From assembly GCA_032881465.1 (NCBI GenBank), contig CP126168.1, forward strand, positions 2,728,001-2,792,000: a stretch of 64,000 nucleotides of DNA, read 5' to 3'. Numbering within the stretch: the first letter of the stretch is position 1; the number at the start of each line of letters is the position of its first letter. Made by a program: the position numbers and the translations under genes. Below the pieces are notes generated by a model. That model was not told the DNA's origin and did no database searches. It saw only the letters and a list, made by a program, of their open reading frames with translations. Positions 59,148 to 61,130 of the stretch are shown here, piece after piece. Origin of the DNA: Parvibaculaceae bacterium PLY_AMNH_Bact1 (GTDB taxonomy: Bacteria; Pseudomonadota; Alphaproteobacteria; Parvibaculales; Parvibaculaceae).

Positions 59148-59222
59148 TGGTGGGCGATACTGGGATTGAACCAGTGACCTCCTCGATGTCAACGAGGCGC
59201 TCTCCCGCTGAGCTAATCGCCC
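59148..59222 (-). tRNA. tRNA-Val (anticodon GAC)
   Basis: The minus strand reads GGGCGAT for the 5' acceptor strand, then TAGCTCAGCGGGAGAGC for the D-arm, CCTCG-TTGACAT-CGAGG for the anticodon arm with GAC, then the T-arm with GGTTCAATCC, and ATCGCCC-A-CCA. The acceptor and all arms pair, and CCA is encoded. It is the only tRNA seen in the window. Confidence 0.97.
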
Positions 59223-59986: not shown

Positions 59987-60961
59987 ATGGATCTCAATCA
60001 AACCCATTCGCATTCAGATCAAGAGCTTGAGGGCCTCAGCGACAATGACGCCCTTGAAAACCGTTCGGCTGCGATAGGGGATTTCCAAGAGCCGTTCGAA
60101 GTGCTCGAGCCACGCAAACAGACACTTCCATTTGTCCTGAATTCACCTCATTCGGGCCGCGTATATCCACCCAGGTTTCTGGCGTCCTCAAACCTCGACC
60201 CGTTAACACTCCGGCGTTCAGAGGACAGTTTCGTCGATGAGATATTCTCAGGTGCAGTTGAGCTCGGTGCCCCTTTGCTGCGCGCCCACTTTCCGCGCGC
60301 TTATCTGGATGTTAATCGAGAGCCTTACGAGCTGGACCCTGCAATGTTCGCAGACCCGCTCCCTCCACATGTCAACACGCGGTCAATCAGAGTAGCAGGC
60401 GGCTTGGGCACCATTGCGCGCATCGTTGCAGAAGCAACAGAGATTTACAGCACACCGCTCCCTTATTCAGAGGCGGAAACACGCATTCGAGACATCTATA
60501 TGCCATTCCACGAGACCCTCAGGGGCTTGCTGGAGAAAACGCACCGACAGTTTGGACAGGCCGTGCTGATTGATTGCCACTCCATGCCCTCAACAGGCGG
60601 CCCGTTCGACGAAGAAATCGATGCGAACCGTCCAGATATTGTGCTGGGTGACCGATATGGCATGTCCTGCGCTCAAGAGCTTGTAGAATCTGCAGAGCGC
60701 ATCCTGAAGTCCATGGGGTACAGAGTGACCCGCAACAATCCCTATGCTGGCGGCTTCAACACTGAGCACTATGGCGCGCCCTCCCAAGGGCTTCACGCCA
60801 TACAGGTTGAAATCAACCGAACGCTTTACATGGATGAGCAAAAGGTCCAGCGCCGCGCGGGCATTACACGACTGTCGAAAGACATGACCCGTTTGGTGCG
60901 CAAACTGGGTCGCGAAATGCGCCGCGCCTCCTGGACGGCATCCCAAAGAAAAGCGTCCTAG
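59987..60961 (+). CDS. N-formylglutamate amidohydrolase family protein (second copy)
   Basis: The 324-residue protein has the N-formylglutamate amidohydrolase motifs PFVLNSPHSGRVYPPRFL, RAYLDVNREPYELDP, VLIDCHSMPSTGGP and HAIQVEINRTLYMDE. His and acidic residues in these segments hold the catalytic metal. It is more similar in layout to classical HutG-like proteins than the first copy at 16643-17545. Being divergent from cpdR is common in Alphaproteobacteria. The start has a weak ribosome-binding site. Confidence 0.87.
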   Translation: MDLNQTHSHSDQELEGLSDNDALENRSAAIGDFQEPFEVLEPRKQTLPFVLNSPHSGRVYPPRFLASSNLDPLTLRRSEDSFVDEIFSGAVELGAPLLRAHFPRAYLDVNREPYELDPAMFADPLPPHVNTRSIRVAGGLGTIARIVAEATEIYSTPLPYSEAETRIRDIYMPFHETLRGLLEKTHRQFGQAVLIDCHSMPSTGGPFDEEIDANRPDIVLGDRYGMSCAQELVESAERILKSMGYRVTRNNPYAGGFNTEHYGAPSQGLHAIQVEINRTLYMDEQKVQRRAGITRLSKDMTRLVRKLGREMRRASWTASQRKAS

Positions 60962-60997
60962 CACCAAGCCTCTTGCAGAGAACTGCCGAAGACTTCC

Positions 60998-61096
60998 AAA
61001 AAAAGGGGCCATACTGTTGCCAGCATGGCCCAAGTCTAGGGAGGAAACGCCCAAGAAGGGCTGCTATCAGGGAGTTTAAACTCACGCCTGATCGCC
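60998..61096 (-). ncRNA. Candidate small RNA with own promoter and terminator
   Basis: This lies in a 405-bp gap without a gene on either strand. On the minus strand TTGATT (61130-61125), a 17-bp spacer and CATATG (61107-61102) form a promoter. The transcript from about 61096 would fold as a stem ATCAGG/CCTGAT enclosing GAGT-TTAA-ACTC, then a GCCC-TTCTT-GGGC hairpin, then unpaired CCTCCC. It ends in a strong terminator: GGGCCAT/ATGGCCC with CTG/CAG and a run of seven T. No minus-strand gene exists upstream for this terminator to serve. The CCTCCC could pair with ribosome-binding sites, as in known anti-Shine-Dalgarno small RNAs. A GGAGG at 61099-61095 could pair with it only if transcription starts at or upstream of 61099; a start at 61096 would exclude most of it. 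Expression is not shown. Confidence 0.6.
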
Positions 61097-61101
61097 TCCG
61101 A

Positions 61102-61130
61102 CATATGCGCGTGCAGTGCACAAAAATCAA
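61102..61130 (-). promoter_or_regulatory. Sigma-70-type promoter of the candidate small RNA
   Basis: TTGATT and CATATG on the minus strand are separated by exactly 17 bp. The -10 is a modest match, the -35 a good one. The predicted start leads directly into the structured RNA. Confidence 0.45.

Follow-up and report, generated by a model that had tools for sequence, protein, structure and literature searches.

A chromosomal alpha-r8 small RNA next to an N-formylglutamate amidohydrolase gene in a Parvibaculaceae bacterium, with a putative PhaR operator in its promoter and related copies in phages

The closest described relatives of the locus studied here are the small RNAs SisA of Caulobacter crescentus (PMC12559287) and MmgR of Sinorhizobium meliloti (PMC7143759, PMC12542648). 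According to PMC12559287, alpha-r8 RNAs are recognised by a terminator and by a UUUCCUCCCU that is single-stranded and follows a weak hairpin, and most species carry one copy that adjoins the gene for N-formylglutamate amidohydrolase (FGase). The same study showed by point mutation that the 10-mer of SisA pairs upstream of the start codon and represses its target. For MmgR, a 2025 study of S. meliloti (PMC12542648) gives the core of the PhaR motif as YGCRNYGCR and reports that PhaR binds the mmgR promoter in electrophoretic mobility shift assays and that exclusion or mutation of the palindrome abolished this binding. The locus described here lies on the minus strand at positions 60998-61130 of a 64,000-nucleotide stretch (hereafter the window) from Parvibaculaceae bacterium PLY_AMNH_Bact1 (GCA_032881465.1, contig CP126168.1, positions 2,728,001 to 2,792,000). 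Judged by its sequence, the gene is a chromosomal, FGase-linked alpha-r8 RNA and the counterpart of SisA and MmgR.

The features of the locus, in window positions, are as follows.

60998-61095, minus strand: predicted alpha-r8 small RNA of about 98 nt, from promoter and terminator coordinates and the fold; the start is placed 7 nt after the -10 element
60992-61068, minus strand: match to Rfam RF00519 (suhB/MmgR), model positions 1-77; 64.1 bits, gathering score 41, E 4.1e-12
61125-61130, minus strand: -35 element TTGATT, conserved in the 38-row alignment
61112-61120, minus strand: putative PhaR/AniA operator core TGCACTGCA (YGCRNYGCR, motif from PMC12542648), in the promoter spacer
61102-61107, minus strand: -10 element CATATG after a 17-bp spacer; weak by the E. 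coli consensus, position backed by conservation
61063-61095, minus strand: 5' bulged hairpin, mostly outside the Rfam model, from the fold and from folds of family sequences
61049-61061, minus strand: short hairpin GCCC-UUCUU-GGGC (DNA GCCC-TTCTT-GGGC), from the Rfam match, family alignment and fold
61032-61048, minus strand: open stretch GUUUCCUCCCUAGACUU between the short hairpin and the terminator
61038-61047, minus strand: unpaired 10-mer seed TTTCCTCCCT, anti-Shine-Dalgarno, from the fold; identical to the family core 10-mer (PMC12559287)
60998-61031, minus strand: intrinsic terminator, 11-bp stem and seven T (U in the RNA), from the terminator scan and fold
59987-60961, plus strand: convergent FGase gene (PF05013, 257 bits), the usual neighbour of alpha-r8

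The Rfam scan covered 4 kb, and RF00519 is named suhB and described as mmgR in that database. All of the sequence marks of alpha-r8 were found: a score above the gathering score, an exact and unpaired 10-mer UUUCCUCCCU after a weak hairpin, a Rho-independent terminator at the 3' end, and the FGase neighbour, with which the small RNA is convergent and to which it lies 3'. The original prediction had proposed a new small RNA without an obvious match to a known one. That part has to be given up, as the covariance search assigns the locus to RF00519 and its location beside FGase is the published one for the family. The likeness to SisA comprises the 10-mer core, the weak hairpin before it, the terminator after it and the place 3' of FGase, whereas Caulobacter differs in having four siblings, for which the sponge CrfA is also known. 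MmgR shares the Rfam family and a PhaR-type operator core in the promoter. However, MmgR is 77 nt long compared with about 98 nt predicted here, and the 5' hairpin lies mostly outside the model.

The AbcR RNAs (alpha-r15, PMC7143759) are also CU-rich anti-Shine-Dalgarno RNAs with a partial resemblance to the suhB model, and a second CTCCC within the 5' hairpin might suggest that the locus belongs with them. However, AbcR has two open motifs and tandem genes by lsrB, neither of which is found at this locus: there is a single open seed, and the other CTCCC is paired in the predicted fold. The full-length RF00519 match over the cut-off, the alpha-r8 10-mer and the FGase neighbour also oppose an AbcR assignment, and no LysR-type gene was present among the five neighbour genes scanned (FGase, SLT, a response regulator, an FAA hydrolase and a glutamate-synthase-like gene). 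The probability of an AbcR-type RNA is therefore considered negligible.

The architecture anticipated by the original prediction was largely borne out. The minus-strand promoter with 17-bp spacing, the two internal hairpins and the exposed CCTCCC within the open seed were all recovered, as was the strong U-run terminator, with its stem-loop at 61006-61031 and its T-run ending at 60998. The 100-nt strand folded at -42.4 kcal/mol, whereas 200 dinucleotide shuffles averaged -28.5 (sd 3.5; z -3.94) and none of them reached so low a value; the predicted fold consists of three stem-loops and the open seed. There is good support for a small RNA of roughly 100 nt in which CCUCCC is exposed. The CTCCC of the 5' hairpin (61063-61095, minus strand), which is seen in many family rows, is a possible second seed if that hairpin opens.

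Conservation was followed in 40 genomes of the family. RF00519 was matched at E up to 0.001 in all 40, with 38 over the cut-off and weak matches only in G027 and G036, and the 38 genomes over the cut-off supplied the rows of the alignment. Columns conserved in at least 90% of these rows made up 15 of 29 in the promoter and 53 of 104 in the RNA stretch, compared with 1 of 77 upstream and 0 of 20 downstream. Of 80 named FGase loci, 53 had a match at E up to 0.01 to a covariance model (R1) built from 20 family rows and a prophage copy from the same genome (described below), and every one of these matches lies 3' of FGase on the opposite strand. Some of the 80 loci stop near a contig boundary, where the lack of a match does not show that the RNA is absent. 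The gap between FGase and the RNA was 10-142 nt at 29 of the 53 loci, 523-729 nt at another 21 and more than 1,200 nt at the remaining 3.

The original prediction had named a lack of hairpin conservation in close relatives as grounds for rejection, and the result went in favor of the RNA. Six of the 13 predicted pairs of the core are maintained although both partners have changed; all six are in the terminator stem, two of them depend on the prophage copy alone, and the short hairpin shows no such changes. For the 5' hairpin, all 28 distinct family sequences folded with z below -1 (mean -3.3), and its stems are diverse (GCGGCA/TGCCGC, ATCAGG/CCTGAT and GTGATGAGG/CCTTTATTAC). This hairpin was judged by single-sequence folds and not by formal covariation, and MAFFT aligned the variable hairpin poorly.

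It could also be argued that the locus is a mere terminator of a neighbouring gene or an unexpressed relic. The generic scan did list the terminator, yet terminator-like sites are not rare in the stretch and are not enriched over shuffles (2 found, mean of 2.6 expected). However, no gene on the minus strand runs into the terminator, as the original prediction had stated, and conservation is far higher in the promoter and RNA columns than in the flanks, which makes a bare terminator or relic very improbable. Service as the terminator of FGase was ruled out, since the plus strand has no T-run after the hairpin. A chance pairing of promoter and terminator was likewise ruled out by the Rfam match and the conservation.

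The promoter carries the feature that would tie this RNA to PhaR. The operator core lies between the -35 and -10 elements in all 38 family rows. It was also found within 100 nt upstream in 44 of the 53 FGase-linked homologues, loci that are not independent as the 53 overlap the family rows and include near relatives. In control windows located 200-500 nt upstream of these genes, the core was present in 7 of 154. The 44 core-bearing loci include records named Zavarzinia, Oceanibacterium, Arenibaculum, Minwuiaceae, Sneathiellales, Aquibaculum and Phaeospirillum. In many of these wider loci the core, by eye, is closer to the RNA, past the presumed -10 element and not in the spacer. The genome itself has one PhaR match, and box-like words stand upstream of the conserved domain of this match. 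As far as sequence can tell, what is expected of an MmgR-like target of PhaR is therefore present, namely the operator in the promoter and a PhaR gene in the genome. The word TTGTGCNNTGCA has eight sites in the genome, one of which is this promoter, and no PHB (polyhydroxybutyrate) genes were recognised by eye beside the other seven. A literature search, with most subscription journals outside it, found no report of PhaR boxes upstream of alpha-r8 across the class.

Since MmgR is tied to PHB, the RNA could act as its name suggests, as an MmgR-type regulator that limits PHB granules through phasin control. The PhaR operator and the limitation of PHB by MmgR in S. meliloti, known from a review, speak for this. 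However, no match to PhaC_N (PF07167; synthases outside this family were not searched) or to Phasin_2 (PF09361; other phasin families were not searched) was found in this complete genome, although the Caulobacter control was positive for both. As Phasin_2 has no match, the targets reported in S. meliloti are not evident here. PhaR is present in 37 of the 40 family genomes and in all seven of the genus (G000, which is the genome studied here, and G003-G008). PhaC_N is present in 33 of the 40, with 32 of 33 outside the genus but only one of seven inside it. The exception in the genus is G004, a draft whose contamination is estimated at 9%, and the sole miss outside is a 70%-complete draft. The genus thus keeps the PHB sensor and repressor PhaR, the RNA and the operator, while PhaC appears to have been lost. 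PHB granules could therefore hardly be the release signal of PhaR here, and PHB could not be the sole reason for the RNA. A function confined to PHB granules is consequently very unlikely, and because PhaC was not found in six of the seven genus genomes, the retained task is probably in broader carbon metabolism.

We consider it likely that the RNA is a PhaR-repressed, ribosome-site-blocking alpha-r8 RNA of carbon metabolism. In this model, transcription from a vegetative-type promoter would stop at the terminator of the gene itself and yield about 98 nt of RNA, in which the 10-mer UUUCCUCCCU is held open between the second hairpin and the terminator. This 10-mer would pair, presumably with Hfq, with G/A-rich ribosome-binding sites and lower the translation of target mRNAs, and PhaR (AniA) bound to TGCACTGCA inside the promoter would repress transcription. 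Family identity, synteny, structure, the conserved promoter and operator core and the PhaR gene come from the genomes examined here; Hfq, PhaR binding, repression and targets are carried over from the work in Sinorhizobium and Caulobacter. Apart from the two RNA genes, the genome contains the exact complement of the 10-mer at seven sites. One of these is a candidate target (L039:1495-1510, G000:C1 near 714760), where the complement lies 5 nt before an ATG with a computed duplex of -26.1 kcal/mol, and the reading frame resembles, by eye, a short-chain dehydrogenase.

Several points weigh against this model. The -10 element matches the E. coli consensus at only three of six positions, which is why the generic promoter scan did not list the promoter, and the promoter call is based on conservation and not on that consensus. 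Nine of the 53 homologues have no operator core within 100 nt upstream, in addition to the dependence among the core-bearing loci, and the authors of PMC12559287 saw no shared motif upstream of Caulobacter sisA-D. Only one of the seven exact seed complements is at a ribosome site, which could be chance, and the missing Phasin_2 match counts on the same side.

The genome contains a second RF00519 match over the cut-off (1842788-1842871, 50.8 bits). This copy is at the left end of a prophage of about 56 kb (G000:C1:1841336-1897437; L128, L129, L130, L310) outside the window. The prophage ends are a 59-bp repeat (1841336-1841394 and 1897379-1897437), of which the left one overlaps a tRNA-Ser (GCT) gene, and a 360-aa reading frame beside the right one is taken by position as the integrase. 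Matches to PHROGs inside the prophage include terminase, portal, RecT, repressor and, with a weak match, an Rz-like spanin (E 5e-4), and the RNA is downstream of this spanin-like gene on the same strand. There are five extra copies in relatives. Three are beside phage-type genes in PHROGs (L145, terminase and portal; L147, integrase; L148, DarB-like), L146 has matches to PHROGs of unknown function only, and L149 is the fifth. In the genome studied here, 24 RF00519 matches were listed at E up to 10, of which 22 were below the cut-off and were not counted as members. Second matches within the genus (L139-L143, 18.6 to 26.2 bits) have no CCTCCC and were not counted either.

Copies are also found in viral sequences. 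The 15-mer GGGCGTTTCCTCCCT occurs in at least 120 viral stretches, compared with 34 in all for the reversed word. Eighty of these loci (L150-L229, IMG/VR), which are parts of contigs, were kept, and R1 matched 73 of them at E up to 0.1, although part of its bits comes from the 15 selected letters; among 34 control loci there was one match, away from the control word. When whole phage records were used (54, from 50 of the 73 loci, mostly better-scoring, and four isolate records, L306-L309), 47 held a match over the Rfam cut-off. In Bradyrhizobium phage ppBeUSDA76-1 the match (62.8 bits) has no annotated feature under it and lies upstream of an HNH endonuclease and terminase; matches in the Bradyrhizobium phages ppBdUSDA122-1 and BDU-MI-1 were below the cut-off. 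A first search of isolated phages, using the prophage copy as query, yielded matches at E 0.3 only, whereas other alpha-r8 queries gave significant ones. In Microcystis phage Mwe-JY08 (PP395640.1, L308:5995-6078) the match (62.8 bits) is downstream of a peptidase and three hypothetical genes. The listed host of this phage is cyanobacterial and the RNA is of alphaproteobacterial type; the phage may in fact infect an alphaproteobacterium that lives with Microcystis.

FGase is not encoded in any of the 80 viral loci, which are parts of contigs. A phrog_2 terminase was detected in 20 of the 54 records, and 18 of these have the RNA and the terminase on the same strand. The PhaR core was upstream of 7 of 60 phage copies (those of the 73 loci above 35 bits) and in 11 of 168 control windows, which is no clear enrichment. 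Reading-frame overlap was too noisy in this GC-rich DNA and was not used. No report of alpha-r8 in phages was found in the literature search described above. A more tentative proposal, to which we give somewhat less than an even chance, is that alpha-r8 is a regulatory seed common to hosts and temperate phages. The bacterial copy would be wired to PhaR widely in the class, also where PHB synthesis seems to have been lost. Alphaproteobacterial phages would have acquired the RNA repeatedly, lost its PhaR operator and come to carry it mostly in the orientation of the late genes, to impose or disturb host alpha-r8 repression at their own timing during infection. The copies are present in the phage sequences; their expression, origin and purpose belong to the proposal.

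The original prediction had placed the locus in a gap between cpdR and the transglycosylase gene; the true flanks are FGase and the transglycosylase gene. An ordinary tRNA gene (59151-59222, minus strand, Rfam 67.9 bits) adjoins the response-regulator gene.

The observation of a small RNA at this locus is correct, and the RNA itself is an ordinary member of a known family; of specialist interest are the operator, the apparent lack of PhaC alongside it and the phage copies. Less expected are a conserved putative PhaR site in a genus seemingly without the polymer-making enzyme and the same RNA in many phages. The promoter data suggest that the link between PhaR and alpha-r8, known from one Sinorhizobium, would be an old and widespread circuit. 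A genus with PhaR and alpha-r8 but without detectable PhaC is a natural test of the roles of this circuit outside PHB, and the phage copies open a way to test whether phages use a core small-RNA seed of their hosts.
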